From positions 1-25,075 of IMG/VR virus record IMGVR_UViG_3300031141_000038: a stretch of DNA of 25,075 nucleotides, one strand, 5' to 3'. Positions 8,938 to 25,075 of the stretch are shown in pieces. The notes below the pieces were generated by a model that searched no databases, had not been told where the DNA came from, and worked only from the letters and a program-made list of their open reading frames with translations. A program made the position numbers and the translations under genes. The stretch comes from a virus. The number at the start of each line of letters is the position of its first letter. Positions within the stretch are counted from its first letter, which is position 1.

Positions 8938-9014
8938 TTATAGTTAAATATAATCATAATCGATTAACCCGGAAAATAAATTTAACATTATTTTCAAAAG
9001 TTATTAACAATTTC
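8938..9014 (-). promoter_or_regulatory. CCGG-class promoter cassette for 8453-8902
   Basis: Sense order: AATTGTTAATAACTTTTG, TGAAAATAA, CCGGGTTAAT, then ATTATATTTAAC (core 8945-8955). It matches the other CCGG-class cassettes of the window. Confidence 0.7.
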
Positions 9015-9017
9015 TAT

Positions 9018-9368
9018 TTAACTGTGCATTTGATCGACTAGCATAATTAATCGTTTCTTTGCATCAGCGAGATCGGAAATAAGGATTTTTCTAATGTAGT
9101 ATTCTAAATCGGTCTCCAATATGCTAGAGTATGCTCTAATTCTGTCTCGAGTAAATGCGATATCTTTACATAACATATCATGCATAATATCAGCGTCTAA
9201 TTTATCGTTGGTTTCCGCTTGAATCGGAAGCTGATCCGAATCGTCAGCTAATTGCTGTATAAGCGCCTCTGATCGATCGCTAAAATACCGTTCAATTGAT
9301 GTTGAGTCTAATGCACTCCAATGAGCCATTATAAATTCAGATGTGTTTGATTCTGTATTGTTTTCCAT
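9018..9368 (-). CDS. Hypothetical helical protein (116 residues)
   Basis: A 116-residue acidic, helical protein of unknown function. The start at 9368 (MENNTESNTSEFIMAHWSAL) is used because the longer frame from 9407 merely translates the promoter core and leader (MLIFTYNQSNKPT). The C-terminal half, LEYYIRKILISDLADAKKRL, resembles distantly the small A-x-x-x-VIEELE proteins in this window. It has its own CCGG-class promoter and an ACCTAC leader motif just before ATG. Confidence 0.72.
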   Translation of the reverse strand: MENNTESNTSEFIMAHWSALDSTSIERYFSDRSEALIQQLADDSDQLPIQAETNDKLDADIMHDMLCKDIAFTRDRIRAYSSILETDLEYYIRKILISDLADAKKRLIMLVDQMHS

Positions 9369-9387
9369 AGTAGGTTTGTTTGATTGG

Positions 9388-9462
9388 TTATAAGTAAATA
9401 TAAGCATAATAATTTAACCGGAACAATCTTGGACTGTTTATTTTCAAAAGTTATTAACAATC
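9388..9462 (-). promoter_or_regulatory. CCGG-class promoter cassette for 9018-9368
   Basis: GTTAATAAC box, TGAAAATAAA, TTGTTCCGGTTAAAT and the core ATGCTTATATTTAC (9395-9405). ACCTACTATG follows about 25 bases later. Confidence 0.75.
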
Positions 9463-9463
9463 T

Positions 9464-9877
9464 CTATTTGTCAAAATGATCTCGAGAGAGCTCTTCTATT
9501 CTATACTTAGCATGGCTTATAACCGATGAGGCTTTCCTATGGTGTTCTGCTACCTCTACTACGTTTTCAAGTTCCTCTGTAAGCATTTCTCTTACATACT
9601 GGTCTACGTATATTTTAACTAAGTAACTATGGAGCTCTTTAGCTTCAGTTGAAGTCGATGGCTGGTGTATTGTATTTAATAACCTGTCATGCAATATATT
9701 CCGTTTATTTCCCTTTAGCCTATAGAAGAGGTTCCATCCAGCTTCTATGTCTTCTACATGCATTATTACACTATACTCTGCTAAGTATTCATCTAGAGAT
9801 ATCTGATTATCCATACGGTATGTCTGATCCCATTTGATCATTAGCTCTATAGCTTCTTCGTGTATATCTATCGCCAT
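9464..9877 (-). CDS. Hypothetical helical protein (137 residues)
   Basis: A 137-residue helical protein of unknown function (MAIDIHEEAIELMIKWDQTY ...). Its C-terminal third, YVDQYVREMLTEELENVVEV, followed by a helix ending RIEELSRDHFDK, is like the repeated VIEELE small-protein family in this window. It is the last gene of the 10.5-9.4 kb operon and is joined to the gene before it by the repeated CTAAACAAGACTAAGATG junction. Confidence 0.7.
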   Translation of the reverse strand: MAIDIHEEAIELMIKWDQTYRMDNQISLDEYLAEYSVIMHVEDIEAGWNLFYRLKGNKRNILHDRLLNTIHQPSTSTEAKELHSYLVKIYVDQYVREMLTEELENVVEVAEHHRKASSVISHAKYRIEELSRDHFDK

Positions 9878-9888
9878 CTTAGTCTTGT

Positions 9889-10104
9889 TTAGTATCCGTA
9901 ATTAATTTTAATTGAAAGTGCTTCATTCTTACCTTCCTCACCAAAGGATTCCATTACTTCAATAGCAATATCGGTGTCTAGTTGACATATAATACTTGAT
10001 ACGCCACTTAAAAACGAATCCTTATTCTTTATTTCGTGCTCTTGAAGTAAATCGTTTAGCTCCATTGTAATTGTATTTATCTTTCCTAGTCTTTCTCTAT
10101 CCAT
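9889..10104 (-). CDS. Hypothetical protein (71 residues)
   Basis: A 71-residue protein of unknown function (MDRERLGKINTITMELNDLL ...), probably helical with a short C-terminal strand (EALSIKINYGY). It is embedded in an operon of tiny genes. The following ATG comes eleven bases after its stop, with the junction motif ACAAGACTAAGATG between, and it starts at an identical kind of junction after the previous gene. Confidence 0.65.
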   Translation of the reverse strand: MDRERLGKINTITMELNDLLQEHEIKNKDSFLSGVSSIICQLDTDIAIEVMESFGEEGKNEALSIKINYGY

Positions 10105-10105
10105 C

Positions 10106-10324
10106 TTACTCTTGTTTTAGTTCTTTGATTCTATTTTTAAGATTATCTGATAGGTAGGTTTCTACTTCTTGATTAAAGTAATTTTCTAATTGCTTCTCCA
10201 ACTCTTCTATTACTCGCTTGTTAGTAAGCTCCTTAATACGAACATCAATCAGTCTAGCTAAATCATTAGCTAATCGTTTTGGTACTAGACTTAATAAATT
10301 CGCTAATAGTATTTCAGTACTCAT
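10106..10324 (-). CDS. Small VIEELE-family protein
   Basis: A 72-residue helical protein. Residues 35-46 read TNKRVIEELEKQ and the C-terminus is KNRIKELKQE, the pattern shared with 21568-21765 and 21933-22148. The last residues and stop lie in the repeated intercistronic sequence (CTAAAACAAGAGTAAGATG). The family is probably a coiled-coil or helical-bundle protein; no function is known. Confidence 0.7.
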   Translation of the reverse strand: MSTEILLANLLSLVPKRLANDLARLIDVRIKELTNKRVIEELEKQLENYFNQEVETYLSDNLKNRIKELKQE

Positions 10325-10325
10325 C

Positions 10326-10496
10326 TTAGTCTTGTTTTAGTTTGTTGAATCTATTTATAAAGTAGTAGTTTATCTCTCCACTATCATCTATAAGCTGGTA
10401 AACATCTTCGTCCAATGCAATTACATTGTACTTTGAACCTAATGTCAAATGGTTCTTCCATACGCCTGGATCTATGCATTCTACAATTATCATCAT
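10326..10496 (-). CDS. Hypothetical protein (56 residues)
   Basis: A small beta-rich protein (MMIIVECIDPGVWKNHLTLG ... YQLIDDSGEINYYFINRF). It resembles the short KOW/SH3-like phage proteins that carry a YxVIALDEDVYQLIDDSG-type strand pattern. The start at 10496 is chosen because the frame further upstream simply translates the promoter core (MLIFNYNKLNKP). It is the first gene after a CCGG-class promoter and its 3' end is the repeated KLKQD junction. The function is unknown. Confidence 0.7.
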   Translation of the reverse strand: MMIIVECIDPGVWKNHLTLGSKYNVIALDEDVYQLIDDSGEINYYFINRFNKLKQD

Positions 10497-10516
10497 AATA
10501 GGTTTGTTTAATTTGT

Positions 10517-10590
10517 TATAGTTAAATATAAGCATTATTCTTTAACCGGAACAATCCTATGTGATTATTTTCAATAAGTTATTAACAATT
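10517..10590 (-). promoter_or_regulatory. CCGG-class promoter cassette for 10326-10496 operon
   Basis: GTTAATAACTTATTGAAAAT, TTGTTCCGGTTAAAG and the core ATGCTTATATTTAACTATAA (core 10523-10533). It drives the four-gene operon 10326-9464. Confidence 0.75.
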
Positions 10591-10591
10591 T

Positions 10592-10954
10592 CTAACGATC
10601 ACTGCGTTTGAGTATTTGTTTCAGAATAGCCCGATCTGCCATAGATTCAATTAGGTCAGATTCATCTCCCAATATTGCATGATCCCGGCCTAGTTTATAT
10701 GCCGGCAAATATTCATCTGCAATAAATTTGATGTTTGCATCTGCCCAACCCCATAATTCGTCGTGCCAACCTTGTCCGTACCAATCTAATAATATCTTTT
10801 CATCTTGTGTCATAGTTTTGTCCGTGTTAGTTTGTTGTTTTTTAATGCAATTTTCACATAAAACTGCGTTATGTAATCCTCTACCGATAATGCAGCGACA
10901 TTGGTTACATAATGTAGCGCCATACCCGTTGTTGAATTTATGTATTGCTTTCAT
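10592..10954 (-). CDS. Zinc-finger protein with C-terminal helical domain
   Basis: A 120-residue protein. The N-terminal 40 residues form a cysteine finger (C16, C19, C21 and C33, C36: TLCNQCRCIIGRGL then LCENC) of a kind common in phages (KAIHKFNNGYGATLCNQC). A second part from about residue 48 (MTQDEKILLDWYGQGWHDEL) is helical, Trp-rich and unrelated. The two could be a fusion of separate small genes, since the second part begins with an ATG. The promoter is unclear. The function is unknown; the finger suggests nucleic-acid or protein binding. Confidence 0.75.
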   Translation of the reverse strand: MKAIHKFNNGYGATLCNQCRCIIGRGLHNAVLCENCIKKQQTNTDKTMTQDEKILLDWYGQGWHDELWGWADANIKFIADEYLPAYKLGRDHAILGDESDLIESMADRAILKQILKRSDR

Positions 10955-10972
10955 ATTGAATGTCTATTAATG

Positions 10973-11434
10973 TTAAAATGAACCAGGAGCGACTTGCATA
11001 ACCGTTAATCCTCTATCTCTCCACATTTTCACGACCTTATCGCGATCATCGAATATACATAGTACATCAGATTGATTTGGAAATTTAGCGTCGAACCAAT
11101 CTGATTTGAGCTTATCGTCGGGTGTGAATGAATTTAGTGGTCTCATTGTGATACTGTCAAATGGTACATTGAATTTATCAAGCCATTTTGTTGTAGTGTC
11201 CTTTGTTCCAGTACATCGACCAGAAAATATCGCAATATTGAAACCTTGTGATTTGAGTGTTTGTGCCATGATTATGACTGGATTATTGGGCTTATCCATT
11301 TGGATATTATTTGGATCAAAAAACTTAGTCCAATTAATCTTCCCATTGTCCTTTGTGCTAAAGGATCGTCGATCATCAATAAGTGCTAGGGTGCCATCTA
11401 GATCGAAAATTACCCATTTGTTTGAATTGCTCAT
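10973..11434 (-). CDS. HAD-family phosphatase, PseT-phosphatase-like
   Basis: A 153-residue HAD enzyme. Motif I is IFDLDGTLA (D11, D13), motif II is FSGR (70-73), the motif III lysine lies in DDKLKSDW, and motif IV is IFDDRDKVVKMWRDRGLTV (D129-D130). The end, VMQVAPGSF, and overall pattern match the C-terminal 3'-phosphatase domain of T4 polynucleotide kinase (PseT). No kinase domain is present, so it would be a stand-alone phosphatase that removes 3'-phosphate ends of DNA or RNA, or acts on nucleotides. It has a GTCAA-class promoter. Confidence 0.85.
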   Translation of the reverse strand: MSNSNKWVIFDLDGTLALIDDRRSFSTKDNGKINWTKFFDPNNIQMDKPNNPVIIMAQTLKSQGFNIAIFSGRCTGTKDTTTKWLDKFNVPFDSITMRPLNSFTPDDKLKSDWFDAKFPNQSDVLCIFDDRDKVVKMWRDRGLTVMQVAPGSF

Positions 11435-11452
11435 AGTTGATATGTTTAATTG

Positions 11453-11500
11453 TTATAAGTAAATATAAGCAATTAAAATGACATAAAAAAATATTATATC
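11453..11500 (-). promoter_or_regulatory. GTCAA-class promoter for 10973-11434
   Basis: TATGTCATTTTAATTGCT followed by the core TTATATTTAC (11460-11470). There is no GTTAATAAC box. The leader has no SD and the sequence before ATG is TATCAACT. Confidence 0.65.
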
Positions 11501-11502
11501 AA

Positions 11503-11889
11503 CTATTTTATAATTAATATATTTGCCAATTCGATGGCCTTAAGGTACTGGCCATTTTCATCTTCAACTGTCCAAAAAACAATTGACTTTTCCTCATGGA
11601 ATATACAAATTTTGGATTTATCTCCGTCTGTTATGTAACAGTCATATGCATCATCGCATTCTGGAATCAATACCCACCAAGTATGAATAATCTCGGTATC
11701 GTTTAACATTACTTCTATGTACTCTTCGTGGATTGTAAATGCAACTTCAGATTTGAATGATTCATCTAATTGATAAGCCATACCATTCCAATCATACAGG
11801 TTGGTCACATCTGATATATAGGTTGTCTGTGCGGTACATACTGTCGATAATAACATGAATATACATAATGCCGCCTTAATCTTTTTCAT
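11503..11889 (-). CDS. Exported protein of unknown function
   Basis: A 128-residue protein with a signal peptide (MKKIKAALCIFMLLSTVCTA, cleavage expected after CTA-Q). The mature part is beta-rich with four Trp (TWWVLIPECDDAYDCYITDG) and two conserved-looking Cys. The start at 11889 is chosen because GGAG sits seven bases before it and the result is a clean signal peptide; an ATG four codons upstream (11901) is also possible. A late-type promoter core precedes it. It may have a role in the periplasm or outer membrane, such as host surface change. I do not recognise the family. Confidence 0.78.
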   Translation of the reverse strand: MKKIKAALCIFMLLSTVCTAQTTYISDVTNLYDWNGMAYQLDESFKSEVAFTIHEEYIEVMLNDTEIIHTWWVLIPECDDAYDCYITDGDKSKICIFHEEKSIVFWTVEDENGQYLKAIELANILIIK

Positions 11890-11917
11890 CTTTTGCTCCA
11901 TGGTTTAAATCTGTTCA

Positions 11918-11932
11918 TTAATAAATATACAT
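11918..11932 (-). promoter_or_regulatory. AT-rich promoter core before 11503-11889
   Basis: Minus strand TGTATATTTATTAATGAAC, resembling the cores before late structural genes (TATTTAT and GAAC/AAAC downstream). It is 20 bases from tRNA-Met, so the exported protein may be made from its own promoter. Confidence 0.45.
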
Positions 11933-11952
11933 GGTGCTAATTATTGTTGAGT

Positions 11953-12026
11953 GGACCCTACTGGACTCGAACCAGTGACCTTAACATTATGAGTGTTCTG
12001 CTCTAACCAACTGAGCTAAGGGTCCG
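11953..12026 (-). tRNA. tRNA-Met (anticodon CAU)
   Basis: A complete cloverleaf on the minus strand. The acceptor stem is GGACCCT/AGGGTCC, the D-arm GCTC-AGTTGGTTA-GAGC, the anticodon loop CTCATAA (CAT at 11990-11992) and the T-arm ACTGG-TTCGAGT-CCAGT. The anticodon stem has four pairs and a G-A mismatch at its outer end. The 3' end is A followed by CTC, so CCA is not encoded. CAU could also be a lysidine-modified tRNA-Ile. It lies between the SPFH lipoprotein gene and the exported-protein gene, so it would be processed from that transcript. Confidence 0.93.
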
Positions 12027-12029
12027 GGT

Positions 12030-12096
12030 GATGGTTGTCTAACTTTAATTATGGGTGGAAAACCCAACTAAAGACCTTAGTTTGCTGGTACCATCA
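12030..12096 (-). ncRNA. Possible structured RNA between lipoprotein gene and tRNA-Met
   Basis: A 67-base segment with perfect 7-bp ends (TGATGGT/ACCATCA), an inner stem TGGGT-TTTCC-ACCCA and another stem ACTAA-GGTCT-TTAGT; an alternative CTTTA/TAAAG pairing would compete with the last. It ends three bases before tRNA-Met. The stems and length are tRNA-like but no T-loop sequence is present, so it is not a standard tRNA. It may be a degenerate tRNA, a processing element or a terminator-like structure. Confidence 0.4.
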
Positions 12097-12108
12097 ACAG
12101 CTATACTG

Positions 12109-12966
12109 TTATTTGCCGGTTACGGACTTAAATAACTGTGGTACTACGCCGTATGTTGGCAATTTACCATCCCATTTCTCGATCATCTGTTGTTGAACCA
12201 ATAGATCGGTCAATGCTGTGTTTTTCTGCTGGAAAGCATAACGTTCGGCCTCTGCATTAATTCGCATAGCTTTCGCATCTCCCTCTGCTTCTGCAACAAT
12301 TTTCTCTGCATCTGCTGTAGTTTGAGCCAATTCCTCTTGCTTACGTAATGCCATTTGAGTAGCATTAACCTTCGCTTCGATGTTCGACACAACCGATTTT
12401 GGAAGTCTCAACTCATTTAATAATACAACTTGTTCGATGACAAATCCTTCTGGCTCGAGAATCGTTCTAATCGCATTTTCTGACTCAGTTTGGAAGTCAT
12501 TACGACGCTCATATAATTCCGAAGCTGAATAGTTTGCAGCTGTTGAGTTAAACGCATCACGCATATAGTTCTTGACGATCGTTTTTTCTAACTCTCCAAT
12601 TGGTCGACGATATTTCTTAAATATACTTACAACATTTTCAGCTGGAGTATAATAGTTTATAGATACATCGAATGCAACAACTAGTCCATTACTCGTCGTT
12701 ATTCTAAATTCCTCATTTTCATCGGAATGACGAGTGTCTTGCTTAGTGTAAACTGCGTTTTGAACATACGTTGGTACTTCATATACCTCTGTCGTGAATG
12801 GATTGTACCAAACTGCTCCAGTAACTGCTGTTACGTTTTGCACTCCCTTTTCATTTCCATATAGATTAACTCTAATTCCTTCGTGTCCTGCGTCAATACG
12901 CTCATATCCACATGAAGATAACAATAACGTTGCTACCCCTAATACTAATAAAATTTGCTTTTTCAT
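12109..12966 (-). CDS. SPFH/prohibitin-like lipoprotein
   Basis: A 285-residue protein. Residues 1-19 are a lipoprotein signal (MKKQILLVLGVATLLLSSC, lipobox LSSC, lipidated C19). Then comes an SPFH (prohibitin) domain (AGHEGIRVNLYGNEKGVQNV, later RITTSNGLVVAFDVSINYYT and ESENAIRTILEPEGFVIEQV). A long Ala/Glu coiled coil follows (RKQEELAQTTADAEKIVAEA) typical of prohibitins, then a C-terminal cap. SPFH proteins form ring cages in membranes and regulate proteases. Here a lipid anchor replaces the usual transmembrane segment, so it would be anchored to a membrane on its periplasmic face. It is the third gene of a tight operon with a small membrane protein and a phosphoesterase. Bacteroidota have lipoprotein homologues, so host origin is possible. 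Confidence 0.9.
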   Translation of the reverse strand: MKKQILLVLGVATLLLSSCGYERIDAGHEGIRVNLYGNEKGVQNVTAVTGAVWYNPFTTEVYEVPTYVQNAVYTKQDTRHSDENEEFRITTSNGLVVAFDVSINYYTPAENVVSIFKKYRRPIGELEKTIVKNYMRDAFNSTAANYSASELYERRNDFQTESENAIRTILEPEGFVIEQVVLLNELRLPKSVVSNIEAKVNATQMALRKQEELAQTTADAEKIVAEAEGDAKAMRINAEAERYAFQQKNTALTDLLVQQQMIEKWDGKLPTYGVVPQLFKSVTGK

Positions 12967-12970
12967 ATAA

Positions 12971-14082: not shown

Positions 14083-14301
14083 TTAGTATGCTTTTATGAA
14101 TGTTCCTTCTTTACTCGATAAAATTGATAGGCTGAATTCCTTATCGAGGTGCTTAGTAATACTTGATATGTCCATAGATCGCAATGCCATCATAAACATA
14201 TTATAGTTACTGTCTCCGCCGTTTTTGACAAAATACGAAAAAAGCAATTGCACATTCAAATTACTTGAATTGCGCATTGCAATGTATTCTTCCCTAGACA
14301 T
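14083..14301 (-). CDS. Hypothetical protein (72 residues)
   Basis: A 72-residue helical protein (MSREEYIAMRNSSNLNVQLL ... MFMMALRSMDISSITKHL). The start at 14301 is preferred to the longer frame from 14331, because the longer form only translates the end of the upstream gene out of frame. The chosen ATG overlaps the upstream TAG by eight bases. The function is unknown. Confidence 0.65.
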   Translation of the reverse strand: MSREEYIAMRNSSNLNVQLLFSYFVKNGGDSNYNMFMMALRSMDISSITKHLDKEFSLSILSSKEGTFIKAY

Positions 14302-14677
14302 AGCTAATATTACCGTGACCAACCATTCCAACTTCCAATGTCGGAACTAATCCATCGCTATGTAAATCTCCGTATGATTCGTTCATGAACCAGTTTTCAG
14401 AATCAGAAACTGTTCTACTGAATTCCTTGAAGATATCGTCTAATGTGAAACCTTCTCCGAATCTGTAGCACATTGTAGCAACCACATTTCTAAATGCTGT
14501 TTCCGAACTTGGATTGCTTTCATCATCGGCTAACTTGCGAAGTTTACCACCCAATTCCATAATAATTGTCTTCATGTTATCAGCAACTGTATCGTTGTGG
14601 CTGTACATTTCGCTTGAATGTGGCTTTGTAATTTCGATTCCGTAAATGAATTGATTTGGTTTTTTAGTTCTGCTCAT
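14294..14677 (-). CDS. Hypothetical protein (127 residues)
   Basis: A 127-residue protein of unknown function and mixed composition. It includes a helical ADNMKTIIMELGGKLRKLAD, a conserved-looking VVATMCYRFGEGFTLDDIFK and a Gly/Val-rich end (TLEVGMVGHGNISYV). It is the first gene after a CCGG-class promoter with an ACCTAC leader motif, and heads the operon ending with the SPFH lipoprotein. No SD. Confidence 0.72.
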   Translation of the reverse strand: MSRTKKPNQFIYGIEITKPHSSEMYSHNDTVADNMKTIIMELGGKLRKLADDESNPSSETAFRNVVATMCYRFGEGFTLDDIFKEFSRTVSDSENWFMNESYGDLHSDGLVPTLEVGMVGHGNISYV

Positions 14678-14682
14678 AATAA

Positions 14683-14789
14683 GTAGGTTTAGTTAGTGTT
14701 AATTTGTTATTTATAGTATAAATATAAGCAATATTTTCCCAACCGGAAAACGTTTTTACATTTATTTTCAAAAGTTATTAACAATCTAA
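14683..14789 (-). promoter_or_regulatory. CCGG-class promoter cassette for 14294-14677
   Basis: GTTAATAAC box, TTTTGAAAATAAATG, TTTTCCGGTTGGGAAAA, and the core TTGCTTATATTTATACTATA (14719-14729). The 69 bases from 14683 to 14751 are identical to 15403-15471. Confidence 0.75.
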
Positions 14790-15199: not shown

Positions 15200-15397
15200 T
15201 TACTTTATGAAATTACTATATACAAAACTTGCTACAGCTGCAATTGCTACAACAGATACGACCAATAGAATTGGAATCCAGATTGGCGATAGAACCCATG
15301 TCCATGACCATGAAATTAGGTTTGTTAACTTCAAGATAACGAATACAATCAAAACGATTGATGATGAGTTGATTCCTGATTTTGCTTGATTTTGCAT
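15200..15397 (-). CDS. Transmembrane Fragile-X-F-like small membrane protein
   Basis: A 65-residue membrane protein with spans at about 13-28 and 40-60. Between them the WSWTWVLSPIWI motif (30-41), preceded by ILKLTNLIS, matches the phage small-membrane-protein family named after the Tmemb_185A / transmembrane Fragile-X-F domain (K-L-x-G-x-I-x-W-S-W-W-W-V-x-S-P-L-W). The function is unknown; such proteins are frequent in phages and may act in the host membrane. It is the first gene of a CCGG-class promoter cassette identical over 69 bases to the one before 14294. Confidence 0.82.
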   Translation of the reverse strand: MQNQAKSGINSSSIVLIVFVILKLTNLISWSWTWVLSPIWIPILLVVSVVAIAAVASFVYSNFIK

Positions 15398-15402: not shown

Positions 15403-15497
15403 GTAGGTTTAGTTAGTGTTAATTTGTTATTTATAGTATAAATATAAGCAATATTTTCCCAACCGGAAAACAATTGATCATTTATTTTTAAAAGTTA
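15403..15497 (-). promoter_or_regulatory. CCGG-class promoter cassette for 15200-15397
   Basis: Copy of the cassette at 14683-14751 (69 identical bases, core 15439-15449). The upstream GTTAATAAC box overlaps the stop codon of the 45-residue gene at 15498. Confidence 0.75.
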
Positions 15498-15635
15498 TTA
15501 ACAATTTAAAGTATGATAATTACTGATTGGGCTGCTGCCGTACAATCTAATAAAGTCCGATTTAAGAATAGTTTCTACTTCTGAGTCTGGCCATACCATT
15601 GAAACCATATTGCTGTACACGTCTAATACTGTCAT
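15498..15635 (-). CDS. Small hypothetical protein (45 residues)
   Basis: A 45-residue frame (MTVLDVYSNMVSMVWPDSEV ... YGSSPISNYHTLNC). It lies between two clear genes and ends in the promoter's GTTAATAAC box. Amino-acid use is protein-like, but no SD and no family are recognised. It has a 14-base gap from the upstream gene. Confidence 0.5.
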   Translation of the reverse strand: MTVLDVYSNMVSMVWPDSEVETILKSDFIRLYGSSPISNYHTLNC

Positions 15636-16074: not shown

Positions 16075-16353
16075 TTATTTATCTGCTTTAAATCCAGAGA
16101 TTGGCTTTCTTTCAATATCCAAATCAGATATTGTATGTTCGATTGCGTCCATTCTGTCAAGAATAATTGCTAGTGCTTCGTTTGTACTTTCAACGATCGT
16201 CTTATCAGCAGCCTCGAGAGATTTGATCTTTGGATTGCTCTTAACGTTTAGCTTGTTCCAAACCATGAAACCAAATATTGTTGGAGCTAATACTAATCCA
16301 ATACCAGATGCTTTACCTAGCATGTCTAAAAATAATGTTAATTCTGTTTCCAT
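16075..16353 (-). CDS. Single-span membrane protein with helical tail
   Basis: A 92-residue protein. The membrane span is at about 15-32 (ASGIGLVLAPTIFGFMVW), followed by a basic linker and an amphipathic helix (ALAIILDRMDAIEHTISDLD) that could form a coiled coil. It resembles small phage membrane proteins but I cannot name a function. It is the first gene of the GTCAA-class cassette at 16384-16437. Confidence 0.72.
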   Translation of the reverse strand: METELTLFLDMLGKASGIGLVLAPTIFGFMVWNKLNVKSNPKIKSLEAADKTIVESTNEALAIILDRMDAIEHTISDLDIERKPISGFKADK

Positions 16354-16383: not shown

Positions 16384-16437
16384 TAAATATAAGCATTAAG
16401 TTTGACACGGGAAAATTATAGTGAACTTATTTTCAAA
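16384..16437 (-). promoter_or_regulatory. GTCAA-class promoter for 16075-16353
   Basis: TTTGAAAATAAGTTCAC, CGTGTCAAACTTAATGCT and the core TTATATTTAC (16384-16394). No GTTAATAAC box. Confidence 0.68.
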
Positions 16438-16648
16438 TTAGTTTCATATCAACCAACTTGTTTACGACAACTGCTACGTCCCTATGCGTTGCAATAACCG
16501 ATCCATCTATTTCTAGTACCCATTTTCTACTGACTCTACTTAGCCAGATGTTGATGTCTCGATCGTCATGATCAACTGATACAAATGTGTCGTTCACTGC
16601 GTTTGCAGATATAATGTCTTCGACTAATCGAGTTGCTGCATTTTCCAT
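16433..16648 (-). CDS. Small hypothetical protein (71 residues)
   Basis: A 71-residue mixed protein (MENAATRLVEDIISANAVND ...) with strands (DINIWLSRVSRKWVLEIDGS) and a C-terminal helix (DVAVVVNKLVDMKLI). It comes after the 68-residue protein in the operon driven by the promoter at 17204. The function is unknown. Confidence 0.65.
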   Translation of the reverse strand: MENAATRLVEDIISANAVNDTFVSVDHDDRDINIWLSRVSRKWVLEIDGSVIATHRDVAVVVNKLVDMKLI

Positions 16649-16867: not shown

Positions 16868-17167
16868 TTATATGTGTTGTTTCCATTCTGGGTGAAGGTT
16901 ATGGTGAGCATCATCTAAATATACGATGGTTTTGAAATCGCAGTATGGATCATCGATACCCAATTCCCTTGCTGTTAATTGGAATATGATACCTTTCTTA
17001 GTTAAGCTACCAAGAACTCCTCTAATAGATTTAGCTGGAATTCCAGTTTGTCTAACTAGATCTGCATCTGAAACATCGCTGAATCCAGGCTCAGCGTATA
17101 ATCCTTGTATTAGTTCAGTTAGTACCTGTGTTTCTAATGTTGTGATGTTGAGATTGTGATTTTCCAT
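16868..17167 (-). CDS. Winged helix-turn-helix protein
   Basis: A 99-residue protein. A TTLETQVLTELIQGLY helix is followed by DADLVRQTGIPAKSIRGVLG (helix-turn-helix) and SLTKKGIIFQL (wing), the layout of a small MarR/ArsR-like wHTH. It probably binds DNA and may regulate phage or host promoters. It is the first gene of a GTCAA-class promoter cassette and is followed by two small genes. Confidence 0.78.
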   Translation of the reverse strand: MENHNLNITTLETQVLTELIQGLYAEPGFSDVSDADLVRQTGIPAKSIRGVLGSLTKKGIIFQLTARELGIDDPYCDFKTIVYLDDAHHNLHPEWKQHI

Positions 17168-17203: not shown

Positions 17204-17265
17204 TAAATATAAGCATTAAGTTTGACATAAAAAAACTTTATGTTAACTATTTTCAAATTAATTTA
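17204..17265 (-). promoter_or_regulatory. GTCAA-class promoter for 16868-17167
   Basis: TTGAAAATAGTTAACATAAA, TATGTCAAACTTAATGCT and the core TTATATTTAACTATAAC (17204-17214). It almost repeats the promoter at 17995 from TTGAAAATA through the core. Confidence 0.7.
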
Positions 17266-17542: not shown

Positions 17543-17553
17543 TAAATATAATC
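17543..17553 (-). promoter_or_regulatory. Weak promoter core for 17409-17516
   Basis: GATTATATTTACTTATAC on the minus strand, with the GC of the core changed to GA. Upstream elements are absent because the site lies against the end of 17573-17968. Confidence 0.4.
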
Positions 17554-17572: not shown

Positions 17573-17968
17573 TTATGACGCTGGTCCGATTATTGATTCC
17601 ATTTGCTCTGCCATTCGATTGATAACTGTTTGGCGTTTAACTTCAAGATTTATAAGGCGTTCCAGCTTTGATGAATAAAAAGCAAGGTGCTTTGTGTTTA
17701 GCTGTTCGACAGCCTGATTAACTTTGTGCTGATAAAAACCAATCTTGCCCTGGTAGTGTGCTGTCTCCGTCTCTTCAACTTCGTACGTTATATACCTAGT
17801 TTCGTCTGTGTCAATCTGAACGATTCGTTTAACGTGTTGGTCCAATGAAATATCGTGACCTAATGACTGAACTGGTACATGAGCACCTTCAGCGAGTAAT
17901 CCATACTGATTAGCATCGATGATAAATGTTTGGTCGAATTTTGTTGTGATCTGGTAGGTAGTAGTCAT
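17573..17968 (-). CDS. Hypothetical protein (131 residues)
   Basis: A 131-residue protein with a beta-rich first half (TTTYQITTKFDQTFIIDANQ, ETRYITYEVEET) and a long C-terminal helix (VEQLNTKHLAFYSSKLERLI) likely to form a coiled coil. The start at 17968 replaces the longer frame, whose start (MSNLMLIFNYNKLN) is translation of the promoter core. It follows a GTCAA-class promoter. The function is unknown. Confidence 0.7.
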   Translation of the reverse strand: MTTTYQITTKFDQTFIIDANQYGLLAEGAHVPVQSLGHDISLDQHVKRIVQIDTDETRYITYEVEETETAHYQGKIGFYQHKVNQAVEQLNTKHLAFYSSKLERLINLEVKRQTVINRMAEQMESIIGPAS

Positions 17969-17994
17969 AGTTGATTTGTTTAATTTGTTATAGT

Positions 17995-18046
17995 TAAATA
18001 TAAGCATTAAGTTTGACATAAAAAAACTTTTATGTACTTATTTTCA
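17995..18046 (-). promoter_or_regulatory. GTCAA-class promoter for 17573-17968
   Basis: TTGAAAATAAGTACATAAAA, TATGTCAAACTTAATGCT and the core TTATATTTAACTATAAC (17995-18005). Confidence 0.7.
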
Positions 18047-18047
18047 A

Positions 18048-18329
18048 TTAAAATATCAACATACTAACTGGAACATTGTAACTGTTACCAGCATCATCTA
18101 CAGCGACTATCTTAGTGCTATTGATCTTCGTAATAACAAAGTCGGTATTTCTACATTTTTTGTGATCGATTCCAACTTTCATTCCAACTCTTAGTAGTGC
18201 TTTAGTTGAACGATCAGATGTTGATTTCTTCGCTTTAATTGAGCCGATAACCAAGATGTTTAGGCTACGTAATTGCTCGATTGGAAGATCTGCGGTTGAA
18301 ATTGCTTTAACGATTTGTGCGTAAGTCAT
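18048..18329 (-). CDS. Hypothetical protein with C-terminal barrel
   Basis: A 93-residue protein: an N-terminal helix (MTYAQIVKAISTADLPIEQL), a basic loop (KAKKSTSDRSTKALLRVG), and a barrel-like end with IDHKKCRNTDFVITKINSTK and YNVPVSMLIF. The G-x-x-V-x-I-D-H, K-I-N-x-T-K and YNVP features are shared with small phage proteins I have seen in cyanophage-like genomes. The start at 18329 avoids translating the promoter core. It is the first gene of a CCGG-class cassette with ACCTAC before ATG. Confidence 0.72.
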   Translation of the reverse strand: MTYAQIVKAISTADLPIEQLRSLNILVIGSIKAKKSTSDRSTKALLRVGMKVGIDHKKCRNTDFVITKINSTKIVAVDDAGNSYNVPVSMLIF

Positions 18330-18349
18330 AGTAGGTTTGTTTAATTTGT

Positions 18350-18422
18350 TATAGTTAAATATAAGCATAATAATTTAACCGGAACAATCCTATGCAATTA
18401 TTTTCAATAAGTTATTAACAAT
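18350..18422 (-). promoter_or_regulatory. CCGG-class promoter cassette for 18048-18329
   Basis: AATTGTTAATAACTTATTG, TGAAAATAA, TTGTTCCGGTTAAAT and the core TGCTTATATTTAAC (18356-18366). It is nearly the same as the cassette before 10326-10496. Confidence 0.75.
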
Positions 18423-18433
18423 TTGGAATGTTG

Positions 18434-18526
18434 TAAGGGAGGCAGGACTCGAACCTGCGCGATAAGGATTTGTTAGCCTTATCTCTCTTATTTGCGTATA
18501 GCGTTTCCCAGTTTCGCCACTCCCTT
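18434..18526 (-). tRNA. Class II tRNA-like gene, Leu-like, possibly degenerate
   Basis: A 93-base RNA on the minus strand. The acceptor AAGGGAG/CTCCCTT (7 bp), a D-arm GCG-AAACTGGGAAA-CGC, a long arm GATAAGG-CTAACAAAT-CCTTATC, and a T-arm GCAGG-TTCGAGT-CCTGC fit tRNA-Leu/Ser class II layout. The anticodon arm is poor: the best fit is loop CGCAAAT (CAA, Leu) with only three pairs and no U33. It may be a decayed tRNA or one with an unusual anticodon arm. CCA is not encoded. Confidence 0.6.
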
Positions 18527-18965: not shown

Positions 18966-19205
18966 TTAGTATCGTTTTGGTATAAGATTAACAATTGGAC
19001 CCTCGCTACCACTTGCCACATTCGCGGTCAATATGATACTGAGCAAGTAATCCTTTTCACTGATCGTCGCTTCGCTAACTATCAAGCTTAATAATTCGGC
19101 ATTGTTCGTACATGCTTCAACTTTTGCATTCCAACTTTCGTTCATATGAAACGGCATGCGATAAATCTCGCCTCGTAGATAACCTATTGTAAATTTGTTT
19201 TGCAT
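18966..19205 (-). CDS. Hypothetical protein (79 residues)
   Basis: A 79-residue protein (MQNKFTIGYLRGEIYRMPFH ...), helical, with a C-terminal hydrophobic piece (DYLLSIILTANVASGSEGPI). It is the first gene of a GTCAA-class cassette (core 19231-19241). No family is recognised. Confidence 0.65.
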   Translation of the reverse strand: MQNKFTIGYLRGEIYRMPFHMNESWNAKVEACTNNAELLSLIVSEATISEKDYLLSIILTANVASGSEGPIVNLIPKRY

Positions 19206-19230: not shown

Positions 19231-19276
19231 TAAATATAAGCAATAAAATTGACATGGTAAAACATTCGTCAACTTA
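19231..19276 (-). promoter_or_regulatory. GTCAA-class promoter for 18966-19205
   Basis: AAATAAGTTGACGAATG, CATGTCAATTTTATTGCT and the core TTATATTTAC (19231-19241). No GTTAATAAC box. Confidence 0.68.
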
Positions 19277-19392
19277 TTTCGCAATCGCCCACCGATAATA
19301 ACCTAAGCGGAGACCGCCATACCAGGACAGATTCCAGGCAGGTCTATCTTATAGGTATTACAATAACCCTCGATCGTTAGCGTCTCACGATG
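19277..19392 (-). ncRNA. Gene-free stretch with a stable hairpin
   Basis: 116 bases without a credible frame between the promoter and the stop of 19393-19698. A stem AGACC-GCC / GGC-A-GGTCT (19311-19318 with 19337-19345, one bulge) is the best structure. It is less AT-rich than the leaders around it. It may be a small RNA or a 3' end structure; no family is recognised. Confidence 0.35.
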
Positions 19393-21019: not shown

Positions 21020-21020
21020 C

Positions 21021-21461
21021 TTATTTTTGTTTTATAATGTTTCTTAATTTGCCTTCATCTAGTAGTACGTTCATCTTATGAAGTCGAGGGCTGCTGAACC
21101 CATAGACCTTCTTTACCCAAATCATTCCTTTGTTTAGGTATCTGTTACTATCTAGCTGCAACTCCTCGTATTCGAATCCTATTCTGAAGTCTTCGATAAC
21201 TAGCGGTAAGTCTTGTTCCATCTTATTCTCAGTTAGTTCTGCAATCCTATTCTTTAAGTCGACCCATATCCAGCCATAATCTTCAATTGCGCAGTTATAA
21301 GGAAACTTTGCCTCGATAGCTTCCAACTCCTCTATGACCAGTTGGTTAGCTAATTCCATGATCCAATCGATCTGCTCATCGCTAAGGTCTGTACATAAGG
21401 CATCGCAATAAGGTACCTTACATCCTCTACACTGTAGTCTTTCCTTTAGCTTAGCCTTCAT
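21021..21461 (-). CDS. Cysteine-rich N-terminus protein with VIEELE helix
   Basis: A 146-residue protein. A cysteine cluster at C11, C14, C19, C23 (CRGCKVPYCDALCTD) could hold zinc. Then comes a helix with ANQLVIEELEAIEAKFPYNC, the VIEELE family motif, a Trp-rich piece (DYGWIWVDLKNRIAELTEN), and a C-terminal strand region (DFRIGFEYEELQLDSNRYLN). The end aligns with small phage barrel proteins. It may be a fusion of a VIEELE unit with an unrelated C-terminal domain. The function is unknown. Confidence 0.72.
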   Translation of the reverse strand: MKAKLKERLQCRGCKVPYCDALCTDLSDEQIDWIMELANQLVIEELEAIEAKFPYNCAIEDYGWIWVDLKNRIAELTENKMEQDLPLVIEDFRIGFEYEELQLDSNRYLNKGMIWVKKVYGFSSPRLHKMNVLLDEGKLRNIIKQK

Positions 21462-21473
21462 CTTAGTCTTGTT

Positions 21474-21566
21474 TTAGTTGTTTAAAAATAGTATCGCCAA
21501 ATAAAACACCCCAGTTGCCAATATTGAAGCTACGCACCATTCAAACAAGTCATTTTTCTTCTTCAT
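21474..21566 (-). CDS. 30-residue single-span membrane peptide
   Basis: The product is MKKKNDLFEWCVASILATGV followed by FYLAILFLNN, with a basic N-terminus and a span at about 8-27. Its ATG is at the repeated junction (CAAGACTAAGATG lies after its stop). It fits between two other genes without overlap. The function is unknown. Confidence 0.7.
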   Translation of the reverse strand: MKKKNDLFEWCVASILATGVFYLAILFLNN

Positions 21567-21567
21567 C

Positions 21568-21765
21568 TTAGTCTTGTTTTAGTTCTTTGATTCTTTGATT
21601 CAATGCTTTTGCAATTTCCTCCACAATAAAACCATCATACATACTGTCAATCATATCTATGGCATTTTCTAGCTCCTCTACACCTCTTTGTTTAGCATAC
21701 CTCTCAACTTGTGATTTAAGGTCGCTATCTGAAATGTCTAAAGTTATCGTTTGTGATTCATTCAT
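21568..21765 (-). CDS. Small VIEELE-family protein
   Basis: A 65-residue helical protein (MNESQTITLDISDSDLKSQV). ERYAKQRGVEELENAIDMID and the C-terminus LNQRIKELKQD match the family seen at 10106 and 21933. Its stop lies in the repeated junction sequence. The function is unknown. Confidence 0.75.
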   Translation of the reverse strand: MNESQTITLDISDSDLKSQVERYAKQRGVEELENAIDMIDSMYDGFIVEEIAKALNQRIKELKQD

Positions 21766-21766
21766 C

Positions 21767-21931
21767 TTAGTCTTGTTTTAGTTCGTTAGGGATTTCCATC
21801 CATCTAATTACTTCACCTTTCAATGTAGTTTCCCACATATCTAACCATTCTGTACCTGTGTAGTAGCACAACTTGATGTAGCCGTTACTCATTCTACACA
21901 CATAGCTTCCTTCTTTTTTTGGGTGTTCCAT
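21767..21931 (-). CDS. 54-residue protein, DUF551-like
   Basis: The product is MEHPKKEGSYVCRMSNGYIK, then LCYYTGTEWLDMWETTLKGE and VIRWMEIPNELKQD. The W-x-D then V-x-x-W-x-x-x-P pattern recalls DUF551 phage proteins, which end in THWMPLPEPP. It ends in the -LKQD junction shared with the VIEELE genes. Assignment is tentative; the function is unknown in any case. Confidence 0.68.
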   Translation of the reverse strand: MEHPKKEGSYVCRMSNGYIKLCYYTGTEWLDMWETTLKGEVIRWMEIPNELKQD

Positions 21932-21932
21932 C

Positions 21933-22148
21933 TTAGTCTTGTTTTAGTTTAATTATTCTTTCCCGTAGTCTAACATATGAATTGCCAACCTCTGCTAAAT
22001 CCATCTGATTTTCCAATTCCTCGATTACTTTCTGGTTAGCATATGCTTCCATGGTCTCGTGGATTAGGCCTTCATCGATACTAACCGTATCCCCATCCTG
22101 GGATATATAGTCGACCTGATCTAATAGTTCTTCTGCTGTCTTATTCAT
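21933..22148 (-). CDS. Small VIEELE-family protein
   Basis: A 71-residue helical protein. HETMEAYANQKVIEELENQM and a C-terminus RLRERIIKLKQD mark it as a relative of 10106-10324 and 21568-21765. The N-terminal part (TAEELLDQVDYISQDGDTVS) is acidic. The start overlaps the previous gene's stop by eight bases. Confidence 0.75.
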   Translation of the reverse strand: MNKTAEELLDQVDYISQDGDTVSIDEGLIHETMEAYANQKVIEELENQMDLAEVGNSYVRLRERIIKLKQD

Positions 22149-22299
22149 CTAATGTTCTTTCTAATATGTTACATTCAAATTTGATATCGTCCCAATCTGA
22201 ATAGAATGAGTCTGCTAATAATGCGGCCTTAGCTAACTCTATGGTTGAGTATACTCCGACTACCTCGTTTATCTCTGTTAATGCTATGTATATTTTCAT
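22141..22299 (-). CDS. 52-residue alpha/beta protein
   Basis: The product is MKIYIALTEINEVVGVYSTI followed by ELAKAALLADSFYSDWDDIK and a final FECNILERTLDE. The N-terminal strand then VVGVYSTxELAKAA is of a type common in small phage proteins. The start at 22299 is chosen over 22377 because the additional residues look non-coding and a perfect hairpin (22340-22356) lies there, probably in the leader. If the start is 22377, the protein has 78 residues. Confidence 0.62.
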   Translation of the reverse strand: MKIYIALTEINEVVGVYSTIELAKAALLADSFYSDWDDIKFECNILERTLDE

Positions 22300-22339
22300 A
22301 TTACTGTTGTCTAGTGTTGTTAGGATGACCCTTAACTGG

Positions 22340-22356
22340 TCTAGGTGGAACCTAGA
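22340..22356 (-). promoter_or_regulatory. Perfect hairpin in the leader of 22141-22299
   Basis: TCTAGGT-GGA-ACCTAGA (7-bp stem, 3-base loop), 41 bases before the preferred ATG. It might regulate translation of the operon start. It would be inside the gene if the longer frame were used. Confidence 0.4.
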
Positions 22357-22424
22357 TGTACGGGGTATGTTGCTCATATTTGTACAAAAAGCACCATGCT
22401 ATAAAAATTGCTTAAGGCCTCTTT

Positions 22425-22480
22425 AAAATAAAGAATTCCCCAACTGTTTACAACTAATTATTTAGTATAACAGTTGGGGT
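22425..22480 (-). terminator. Terminator after the AAA+ ATPase gene
   Basis: An 11-bp perfect stem (CCCCAACTGTT / AACAGTTGGGG, 22438-22448 and 22469-22479) with an inner ACTAA/TTAGT stem. Minus-strand downstream sequence is AATTCTTTATTTT, a broken T-tract. It lies 22 bases after the gene. Confidence 0.78.
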
Positions 22481-22501
22481 ACTCTCTAACCTACATACCT
22501 A

Positions 22502-23719
22502 CTATGCATTGCGTATATCTGCAGCGCTGAATAGAGCGTCTGCCGAATTATCTTGATCGAAGGTTTCATGTCCTTCTAGTATAACGTGCTTTTGAACTAA
22601 TTGCTTAACGAACGTTCTTTCGCTATCTATTCCGCCTGCACCATCGAATTGAGGATAGATGCAAACTTCAGCAGACTCTTCGATTGTGAACCCATCGTAC
22701 ATCAGACTGGCCATCTCTATCGAAGCTCTTGTACTGATGTGTGTACTGATACGTGGACATTCAGCCATTAGTTCTAAACGTGTACCACCTACTATGTTTG
22801 CGATACTTCTTAGATTGTCTGTTGTTACCTTAGGATATATCATCTTAAGTAACTCAAATTCTTCGTCTTCATTCAATACATCCATTTCAACGATAATGAA
22901 CCTATCTAGTAATGCTCTATCCATTACCCTAGTTGCGGTATACTCATTACCTATGTTGGCTGTTGCTATGAACGTAACTCCTTTTGCTACCTTAATGGTT
23001 GGACTACCTTCTGCTTCATCTAATCTTAAGTAGCGTTGTCCTTCATCTAACACAGTCATTAGTATGTTATGTGCATCGGGATGAGCTCTTGATAGTTCGT
23101 CTAATAATATGACCGCATTCTCAGTTTGAATTGCAGTAACGAAGTGTGCTTGTGCAAAGATAGTACCATCTTCCTTATTAAAGTGTGTGTTACCTATAAG
23201 GGTAGATCTAGGATCTTGTGTTGCTCCTAAATTGAAGTAGAAGTCTGGTCTATCTAATGCGCTAACTAGACTCTTTGCAGCCATTGTCTTTCCACAACCT
23301 GCTGGTCCAGTCATTAGTATGTTTTTTGCTCTCATTGCTGACCTAACCAAATATTTCCATTTGAGGTCTGTCATTTTGAGTGTTTTTGGTCTTAGGCTAG
23401 TTGAGCTCGATATGAATGACATAAGCTCTAACTGTTCCTTTGGTAAGTCTGACGGTATCACGTTAAGTTGAGTAGCCGTAAGTTCTGGAAAGTCCTTAAC
23501 TATTGACGTACCTGTCTGAATTGATTCGATCTTTGCAGTACCATACCTTAGTATATCATCTACACAAGTAACTTTAACCGCATTCCCATTCTTAAGGGCT
23601 ACATCGCAAAGTCTAGCGTATCTATCATCATTTGGCCATGCATACTGATTGTCTGCTGTGTCCAATAATGTCTTGATTCCTTTGATAGTGGTTGGTGATA
23701 AATAAACTGTTTTTGTCAT
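22502..23719 (-). CDS. CobS/MoxR-like AAA+ ATPase
   Basis: A 405-residue AAA+ ATPase of the AAA_5 (MoxR, CobS, midasin-like) group. An N-terminal region of unclear fold (1-120) is followed by Walker A GPAGCGKT (138-145), Walker B VILLDE (203-208), sensor 1 FIATAN (250-255) and RALLDRF (268-274) with the arginine finger. The sequence is close to the CobS-like proteins of T4-like cyanophages. Such ATPases usually act with a vWA-domain partner to load metals or remodel proteins; no partner lies in this window. It is preceded by small genes sharing its transcript and followed by a terminator. Confidence 0.9.
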   Translation of the reverse strand: MTKTVYLSPTTIKGIKTLLDTADNQYAWPNDDRYARLCDVALKNGNAVKVTCVDDILRYGTAKIESIQTGTSIVKDFPELTATQLNVIPSDLPKEQLELMSFISSSTSLRPKTLKMTDLKWKYLVRSAMRAKNILMTGPAGCGKTMAAKSLVSALDRPDFYFNLGATQDPRSTLIGNTHFNKEDGTIFAQAHFVTAIQTENAVILLDELSRAHPDAHNILMTVLDEGQRYLRLDEAEGSPTIKVAKGVTFIATANIGNEYTATRVMDRALLDRFIIVEMDVLNEDEEFELLKMIYPKVTTDNLRSIANIVGGTRLELMAECPRISTHISTRASIEMASLMYDGFTIEESAEVCIYPQFDGAGGIDSERTFVKQLVQKHVILEGHETFDQDNSADALFSAADIRNA

Positions 23720-23770
23720 AATGTAGGTATTTGGTTATTGTTATGTGTACGTGATTGTTAGTGTGATCGA

Positions 23771-23905
23771 TTATCCGATCATGTGTATTAGAACGATAAG
23801 TAGCCAATATGCTCCAATTATACTGACTGCTACGATTAACGATTGTGTAGCCTCGATTGGATCTTCTTTGATGGCCTTTGCGAAGTCTTTGAATAGATCG
23901 ATCAT
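23771..23905 (-). CDS. 44-residue single-span membrane protein
   Basis: The product is MIDLFKDFAKAIKEDPIEAT followed by QSLIVAVSIIGAYWLLIVLI and HMIG. An amphipathic N-terminus precedes a span at about 22-43. It lies between 23911-24087 and the ATPase. The leader is not SD-like. The function is unknown. Confidence 0.72.
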   Translation of the reverse strand: MIDLFKDFAKAIKEDPIEATQSLIVAVSIIGAYWLLIVLIHMIG

Positions 23906-23910
23906 AATGA

Positions 23911-24087
23911 TTATAGTTTAGATTGTTTCTGATTGTACTTATCTGCAGCATCGCATAGTTCTTCGAATCGTGATCCTGTTTCAGCAGGCTTAACTGATTC
24001 ACCATGTATAGTCATTCCATCTCTAGTGATTGTGATTAGATTGTGACCGTTTAAATGTACTGCGTAATTTCCGAATTTCTTTGTCAT
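23911..24087 (-). CDS. 58-residue hypothetical protein
   Basis: The product is MTKKFGNYAVHLNGHNLITI, then TRDGMTIHGESVKPAETGSR and FEELCDAADKYNQKQSKL. A beta-rich first half is followed by a helix. It is the first gene of a CCGG-class cassette, with two ACCTAC repeats before ATG. It heads the operon of the ATPase. The function is unknown. Confidence 0.7.
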   Translation of the reverse strand: MTKKFGNYAVHLNGHNLITITRDGMTIHGESVKPAETGSRFEELCDAADKYNQKQSKL

Positions 24088-24120
24088 AATGTAGGTAGGT
24101 AAGGTTAAGTTGTTATTGAT

Positions 24121-24195
24121 TTATAGTATAAATATAAGCATTAAATGTTAAACCGGAAACTGTTTTGCAACTTAGTTTCGAAAGTTATTAACAGT
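24121..24195 (-). promoter_or_regulatory. CCGG-class promoter cassette for 23911 operon
   Basis: GTTAATAACTTTCGAAACT, CAGTTTCCGGTTTAACATTT and the core ATGCTTATATTTATACTATA (24129-24139). Confidence 0.72.
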
Positions 24196-24393
24196 CTATA
24201 TTATTGGGTTAGTTGGTCGCAATTGTGAGATTCGAAGTGTATATAACCGGAACGTACCTAAATTGATTGCGACTACGTTGACTTTGTTTATCTTATGTAC
24301 TAGGTATTTGCTGAAGTCTCCACCTCTCTTACATCTTGGTGTTTTGAATTTTGGAAGTAACTCTACGATTTGTGTTGTGAAAATGTCTTTCAT
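24196..24393 (-). CDS. Hypothetical protein (65 residues)
   Basis: A 65-residue basic protein (MKDIFTTQIVELLPKFKTPR ... INKVNVVAINLGTFRLYTLR). Short strands at the end could form a small barrel. It has its own CCGG-class promoter and ACCTAC leader. No family is recognised. Confidence 0.65.
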   Translation of the reverse strand: MKDIFTTQIVELLPKFKTPRCKRGGDFSKYLVHKINKVNVVAINLGTFRLYTLRISQLRPTNPII

Positions 24394-24432
24394 AATATAG
24401 GTAGGTAAGGTTAGTGTTAATGTGTTATTTAT

Positions 24433-24503
24433 AGTATAAATATAAGCATTCTATTCTTAACCGGAAACTGTTTGATCATTTAGTTTCATAAGTTATTAAC
24501 AGT
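24433..24503 (-). promoter_or_regulatory. CCGG-class promoter cassette for 24196-24393
   Basis: GTTAATAACTTATGAAACTA, CAGTTTCCGGTTAAGAATAG and the core ATGCTTATATTTATACTATA (24437-24447). Confidence 0.74.
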
Positions 24504-24513
24504 TTCGAATGTA

Positions 24514-24966
24514 CTATTCGTTAATATCTAAGAAATAGATAGCATCTTCAGGATGTGTATTTGAAACGAAAGCATTATCAGCCCAAGTTTTAGCATTAAC
24601 TGCCTTATATTGTGTTTGGCTATACAAGTTTGTATTCTCCCAACCATTATTAATATCTGCTACAGTTAGACTAGCCAAGATGGTTTCGTCGATAAATACG
24701 ATTTTCTTACCTTTCTTAGCAAATACTGTAACATAGAAATCTAATCCTTCTGGACAAAACTCTACAGTGTGTAGAACTCCTTTTTTGTAACTGTTGATTG
24801 CCTGTGCAGGATTCTTCATTATAGCTACATTATCAAAGTCTCTACAATCTACAACGGTCATGAATCCAGCTCTACATTTAACTACCATTCTGAATTTACC
24901 AGATGTGTAGCTTGCAATGTGATTTACTGTGTGAATGTCTGTAGTGTTGATTAGTTGATTGCTCAT
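24514..24966 (-). CDS. Hypothetical protein (150 residues)
   Basis: A 150-residue beta-rich protein of unknown function: SYTSGKFRMVVKCRAGFMTV, VVDCRDFDNVAIM, later FYVTVFAKKGKKIVFIDETI and TVADINNGWENTNLYSQTQY. The end is acidic (TWADNAFVSNTHPEDAIYFL). The repeated strands suggest a barrel. It is the rightmost gene in the window and has its own CCGG-class promoter with two ACCTAC repeats. Confidence 0.72.
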   Translation of the reverse strand: MSNQLINTTDIHTVNHIASYTSGKFRMVVKCRAGFMTVVDCRDFDNVAIMKNPAQAINSYKKGVLHTVEFCPEGLDFYVTVFAKKGKKIVFIDETILASLTVADINNGWENTNLYSQTQYKAVNAKTWADNAFVSNTHPEDAIYFLDINE

Positions 24967-24999
24967 AGTAGGTAGGTTTAGTTAGTGTTAATGTGTTAT

Positions 25000-25075
25000 T
25001 TATAGTATAAATATAAGCATTCTAGCCTACACCGGAAACTGTTTTGTACTTTATTTTCATAAGTTATTAACAATT
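25000..25075 (-). promoter_or_regulatory. CCGG-class promoter cassette for 24514-24966
   Basis: AATTGTTAATAACTTATG, AAACAGTTTCCGGTGTAG and the core ATGCTTATATTTATACTATA (25008-25018). Ends at the window edge. Confidence 0.74.

Follow-up and report, generated by a model that had tools for sequence, protein, structure and literature searches.

The 25,075-base virus record IMGVR_UViG_3300031141_000038 (hereafter the window, meaning the whole stretch that was analysed) carries two classes of short promoter cassette, one combining the box AATTGTTAATAACTTT with a CCGG tetramer (class 1), the other containing GTCAA and lacking the box (class 2). We consider it fairly probable that these cassettes are host sigma-A-type promoters equipped with a helically phased site for an activator that is probably phage-encoded, that both classes act before late expression, and that the structural genes depend on a third motif, GATATTTATA. 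The window is 99.99% identical to IMGVR_UViG_3300031143_000003 (147,286 bases; here G001) and crosses the ends of that record with a 35-base overlap containing one mismatch, indicating that G001 is near complete and probably circularly permuted. Since the window is thus part of a 147-kb genome, promoters could be mapped genome-wide. G001 is a large, uncultured, T4-like phage. Its T4-like genes encode gp25 and further baseplate proteins, UvsX, a replicative helicase, a single-stranded DNA-binding protein (SSB), DNA polymerase and terminase; a Bacteroidota host is probable from the promoter type together with distant relatives.

About a hundred phage contigs contain the box AATTGTTAATAACTTT. When 2.9 million viral contigs were scanned for the box, the A/T-rich stretch GAAAATAA and the core, with 20-40 free bases, at least 118 stretches carried all three, and the reversed pattern returned 0. 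A core was found downstream of 218 of 265 boxes and upstream of only 6, counts that include incomplete and partly related records. Box-to-core distances fell at 36, 46, 56, 67 and 77 bp, with a best period of 10.5 bp over 199 non-redundant sites; part of this set had been chosen with a spacing-limited pattern, a limit that affected neither the sites at 36, 67 or 77 bp nor those taken from whole genomes. Off the main peak, 42 of 46 box sites were within 1.5 bp of phase, as compared with an expectation of 29%. In eight whole phage genomes, in-phase sites comprised 56 perfect boxes, 7 with one or two mismatches and otherwise background, whereas out of phase 0 were perfect, and at the in-phase sites AATTGTTAATAACTTT was nearly invariant over about 15 bp. 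Furthermore, the box appeared to be specific to phages. In 84,980 species genomes of bacteria and archaea, the 22-bp form was present in one 11-kb contig (JACNFT010000052.1, from a Cryomorphaceae metagenome-assembled genome), which is probably phage DNA because it holds a complete cassette. Apart from a phage-like contig, the 21-bp form at up to two mismatches was absent from hosts save for scattered two-mismatch matches, no commoner than those of a reversed control. Neither the 13-bp box TTGTTAATAACTT nor the GTCAA-core element was enriched in 60 Flavobacteriales genomes, and the idea that the phage had borrowed the GTCAA element from its host was rejected on this ground.

All 16 cassette positions listed in an earlier note on this DNA were checked. 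The nine described as CCGG cassettes with a box were all present: each matches GTTAATAAC...CCGG exactly on the minus strand, and a reversed control pattern gave 0. Their core is exactly GCTTATATTTA in eight cases and GATTATATTTA in the ninth, at 8945. At up to one mismatch GTTAATAAC was enriched in the window (28 against 13 expected, 0/100 shuffles), but the core alone at up to two mismatches was not (27 against 22 expected), so that the significance of class 1 comes from the composite. The start follows the core at about 35 bp in 9388, 10517 and 18350 and at about 50 bp in the other six sites; leader length was therefore rejected as a class mark, both values occurring within class 1. Six of the seven GTCAA sites proved sound (5396, 11453, 16384, 17204, 17995 and 19231), although 11453 reads GTCAT instead of GTCAA. 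The remaining one (7711..7760, minus strand) was not accepted, its core being degenerate (TAATATATTTA) and a start codon being absent within 150 bp. Common to both classes are a T-rich -33 region, the core and, largely, the GAAAATAA stretch; the TGAAAATAA stretch, which had been regarded as a class-1 trait, is also carried by the class-2 sites 16384, 17204 and 17995. Nor is GTCAA found in place of CCGG, as had been thought, since CCGG sits about 4 bp upstream of the GTCAA location and hybrids of the two exist (CCGATATCAA at G001 11798, CCCGTGTCAA at window 16384). With the -7 element set at -12 to -5, a placement taken from mapping in Flavobacterium psychrophilum (PMC9723704), CCGG would occupy about -32 to -28 and GTCAA -27 to -23, with the box farther out at about -68 to -60. 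The proposed fit of the core and T-rich -33 region to the Bacteroidota promoter pattern was corroborated, as the core resembles the sigma-A -7 element and the equivalent promoters of MA9V-2, a cultured Chryseobacterium phage, may have either TTATATTTA or TTATATTTG at their end. The added boxes have the appearance of regulatory elements that host promoters lack, in keeping with the earlier suggestion of phage factors.

A search of the whole 147-kb genome with both motif models, which the earlier note had advised, gave 19-25 matches per class, all on the minus (coding) strand and 0 on the plus strand, with about 0 expected by chance. All nine exact class-1 cassettes of G001 fall in the region of the window. 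The tenth box promoter is a hybrid, with the box at distance 46 and CCGATATCAA, before a 666-residue gene at 11798; this VWA/peptidase-like gene is preceded at 11798-11918 by a tandem promoter pair, one member of which is the box/CCG/TCAA hybrid. Box/CCGG promoters head small accessory genes of G001. Those of the GTCAA type are found both in the accessory region and before a thymidylate synthase gene, the SSB-UvsX pair, a DNA polymerase-like gene, GroES-GroEL (GTCAT variant) and a second thymidylate synthase-type gene. Nine of 10 box promoters lie in the accessory region, compared with 6 of 17 GTCAA promoters (p=0.014). In the window, the box goes strictly with CCGG (9:0) and never with GTCAA (0:7), with p=9e-5 as computed on the full earlier list including 7711. 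This pairing is real for the window phage, but it is partly due to recent cassette duplication, and some copies are 75-90% identical over 110 bp, linker and leader included. It is not a general code, because in relatives the box is no less often paired with GTCAA than with CCGG. Among 610 core sites, the box accompanied TCAA in 86 (12 of them also with CCG) and CCG without TCAA in 54; in the genome G004 the box is paired with GTCAA.

A third promoter class, missed in the earlier note, is formed by GATATTTATA, with a copy at window 1216 and a variant near 2512. In G001 the motif lies in intergenic regions of the structural block, 11-50 bp ahead of starts. It occurs in 15 copies, all on the coding strand and 12 within 80 bp of a start (a shuffled genome contained 1), and 15 copies were also counted in the closest relative, G010. 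The structural block of G001 (53-131 kb) holds 10 of the 15 copies, as opposed to 2 of the 27 promoters with a box or GTCAA (p=1e-4). Because the structural genes use GATATTTATA and the cassettes lie almost wholly outside the structural block, two pre-replicative classes seem likelier than an early and a late one. The early-versus-late reading of the two cassette classes was rejected, given this separate late-type motif; what survives of the two expression times postulated earlier is a possible early/middle split, in agreement with the downstream genes in G001. Six relatives have a gp55-type late sigma factor (phrog_234). None was detected in G001 or G010 despite their late-type motif, and the late factor of these two phages may be a different protein.

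In the relatives, genes of the pre-replicative kind follow the box. First genes encode fewer than 150 residues in 65% of 296 cases. A subset of the longer ones was scanned, and among their products are DNA polymerase, DNA ligase, 5'-3' exonucleases, RNA ligase, tRNA nucleotidyltransferase and a MoxR-type ATPase; this subset contained no structural gene. Sigma factors were found as well: phrog_351 in L089 (8.5e-46), and ECF-type sigma genes directly behind box promoters in six loci (L111:12080-12697, L036, L040, L127, L221 and G008 55684-56292), with no ECF-type homologue found in G001. In MA9V-2, the one exact TTGTTAATAACTT box lies 89 bp before an annotated RNA polymerase sigma factor gene.

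According to the mechanism we propose, the cassettes would be strong promoters for the RNA polymerase of the host and its principal sigma factor, in which a TAtaTTT(A/G) -7 element is combined with a T-rich -33 region and the A/T-rich GAAAATAA. One phage element would lie at -32 to -23, inside the -33/spacer region, as CCGG or, about 4 bp further in, as ATGTCAA. The other, restricted to one class, would be AATTGTTAATAACTTT, usually centred near -65 and bound by a sequence-specific, most likely phage-encoded protein that would touch RNA polymerase from the same helix face and activate it. A sequence-specific activator of this kind fits because the box is near-invariant and helically phased, and a phage protein is favoured because the box is absent from host genomes. 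Both classes would serve genes used before late expression, a timing suggested by gene content, and structural genes would be expressed via GATATTTATA; in the window phage, the small accessory genes have box/CCGG promoters before them, and GTCAA promoters precede the genes for replication as well as other accessory ones. We advance with some reserve, at slightly less than an even chance, the more specific proposal that a hitherto undescribed phage-encoded activator, common to many distantly related large Bacteroidota phages, binds AATTGTTAATAACTTT, activates sigma-A RNA polymerase at one-turn steps and drives sigma, replication and takeover genes.

Several points weigh against this mechanism. 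No candidate binding protein was found, and at the level of BLAST homology no DNA-binding family emerged as common to all eight genomes, which share mainly replication, PhoH, protease and structural genes and a few unknowns. Transcript data were not found for any of these phages. The independent origins of the box are fewer than the counts, as the records are incomplete and partly related. MA9V-2 has one box only in 218 kb, from which it follows that the box is not essential for the core/GTC promoter type. Finally, the A/T-rich part could be an UP element to which the alpha subunit binds, and helical phasing would be expected in that case too. The box as such could be an extended UP element or the site of a host protein (alpha subunit or DnaA-type), without any phage factor. 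Its composition, its position upstream of -33 and its phasing are all in keeping with this, conserved UP elements exist in T4 early promoters (PMC2988021), and the reverse complement of the box contains TTATTTTCA and TTATTAACA, reminiscent of a DnaA-type site. However, near-invariance over about 15 bp is unlike the loose preference of UP elements, the 13-bp box is unenriched in the 60 Flavobacteriales genomes, and the scattered two-mismatch matches of the 21-bp form in hosts are no commoner than those of its reversed control. We hold this explanation, the chief alternative, to be unlikely, if worth keeping in mind; the DnaA-box variant was rejected, if not formally excluded, because TTGTTAATAACTT is unenriched in those 60 genomes, host oriC regions not having been inspected.

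Two further explanations concern the origin of the cassettes and the nature of the -32 to -23 element. The cassettes might be mobile regulatory modules, comparable to the PeSLs of T4-like phages, kept alike by duplication and recombination, so that the classes would be two copied lineages under the same regulation. Copying would account neither for the one-turn spacing steps nor for the fact that distant phages keep the box invariant while their linkers have diverged, and in G001 the promoter class differs between accessory and replication genes; we therefore judge the explanation unlikely, even though copies reach 90% identity over 110 bp including linker and leader, the cassettes sit in a variable accessory region, and relatives show an excess of stem-loops between A/T stretch and core (score >=17 in 20%, 2.6% when shuffled). 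Very doubtful, in our view, is the possibility that GTCAA and CCGG are not promoter elements and belong for the most part to a terminator or hairpin of the gene upstream. A terminator-like stem does occupy this stretch in many relatives, and several have a genuine terminator there, such as CCTGACA-TTTTACCG-TGTCAGG-TTTTTT immediately ahead of the core. Yet the gap from TTTTTTATGTCAA to TTATATTTA, for which 6-14 bases were allowed, was fixed at 9 bases in every match listed (101 stretches), and the best class-2 sites of the window have weak stems or none.

The class-1 cassettes of the window, all on the minus strand, are located at 8945..9008 (box 9000-9008, CCGG 8969-8972, core 8945-8955; before open reading frame (ORF) 8453-8902), 9395..9458 (box 9450-9458, core 9395-9405; before an ORF starting about 9368), 10523..10586 (box 10578-10586, core 10523-10533), 14719..14782 (box 14774-14782, core 14719-14729; before ORF 14294-14677), 15439..15502 (before ORF 15200-15397; over 110 bp it shares 90% identity with the copy at 14719), 18356..18419 (before an ORF within 18048-18368), 24129..24192 (before ORF 23911-24087), 24437..24500 (before ORF 24196-24393) and 25008..25071 (before ORF 24514-24966; in G008 and G015, the homologues of this ORF are likewise downstream of a box promoter). 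The leader right before ORF 8453-8902 consists of a tandem 7-base repeat, TATTTGT (7.7 copies, 8885-8939), possibly variable in length. The cassette at 18356..18419 adjoins and directly follows a tRNA-Leu (CAA) at 18433-18526, and tRNA-like ends precede the box in some relatives also; a tRNA-Met (CAT) lies at 11951-12025. Class-2 promoters, again on the minus strand, were assigned to 5396..5430 (T-run, ATGTCAA and core TCTTATATTTA; before ORF 5146-5364 and the SLT-domain ORF 4698-5144), 11460..11495 (ATGTCAT variant; before the polynucleotide kinase/phosphatase-like ORF 10973-11434), 16384..16440 (hybrid CCCGTGTCAA with a GAAAATAA stretch; before ORF 16075-16353), 17204..17260 (GAAAATA stretch; before ORF 16868-17167), 17995..18050 (GAAAATAA stretch; before an ORF within 17573-18019) and 19231..19285 (ACCATGTCAA; before ORF 18966-19205). 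The late-type motif GATATTTATA occupies 1207..1216 (minus strand) in the baseplate/structural block, where ORF 825-1187 starts 29 bp downstream of it, and its variant TATATTTATA occupies 2503..2512 (minus strand), 30 bp before ORF 2147-2482 and after a terminator hairpin (2524-2547). A core GATTATATTTA without CCGG, GTCAA or box was noted at 17543-17553, 35 bp ahead of a short ORF. The near-perfect hairpin GGGCTCAATTTAATTTGAGCCC (7059-7090), which belongs to neither class and lacks a T-run, abuts CCTTATATTTA 65 bp before the 284-residue ORF 6144-6998.

Our literature search yielded nothing relevant on the box or on promoter classes of Bacteroidota phages, nor a promoter grammar for their T4-like or jumbo phages, and the papers on MA9V-1 and MA9V-2 do not discuss promoters. 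The grammar described here is precise and phage-specific, comprising the box, its phased spacing, the -32 to -23 element, the -7 core and a separate late motif. It would allow promoters to be annotated in about a hundred uncultured phages and their expression class to be predicted from sequence, and MA9V-2, with core/GTC promoters and one box, is a cultured relative. If the binding protein exists, it would offer a new gene-control tool for Bacteroidota and could serve as a simple model for activation in helical phase.

Among known systems, PeSLs are mobile regulatory cassettes of T4-like phages with a promoter and a stem-loop, reportedly described by Arbiol et al. in 2010 and Comeau et al. in 2014. 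The cassettes resemble them in arrangement, being near-identical promoter modules present in several copies per genome in hypervariable regions; identities of 75-90% over 110 bp among some copies agree with this. The combination of early promoter and stem-loop is clear in relatives such as G012 and G016, whereas stems are weak in the window phage, which further differs by its Bacteroidota -7 element and by the phased upstream box, a feature that to our knowledge has not been described for PeSLs. PMC4503421 and PMC5931544 cite PeSLs as such mobile cassettes. Bacteroidota sigma-A promoters, mapped in Flavobacterium, carry TAnnTTTG at -12 to -5 (PMC9723704). The core TATATTT(A/G) conforms to this element (TATATTTA in the window, TTATATTTG in equivalent MA9V-2 promoters), and a T-run or TTG provides the T-rich -33 region about 19-21 bp upstream in both classes, while the GTCAA-core element and the upstream box set the cassettes apart, both being unenriched in hosts (a comparison that covered these two elements). 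With T4 early promoters and their UP elements (PMC2988021) they share a strong host-like core and conserved upstream A/T-rich sequence before small accessory genes, but not the invariant 13-16 bp box, which shifts in whole helical turns relative to the core. T4 middle promoters rely on a MotA box centred at -30 and on sigma appropriation (PMC2988021). No MotA box TGCTTtA was found centred at -30; CCGG or ATGTCAA takes up -32 to -23, and TGCTTA before the core overlaps the -7 element. The likeness to middle promoters consists in a host -10-type element joined to a phage element near -30, with replication genes (SSB, UvsX, td) downstream in the analogous class; the sequence is another one, and the strongest phage element here lies near -65.

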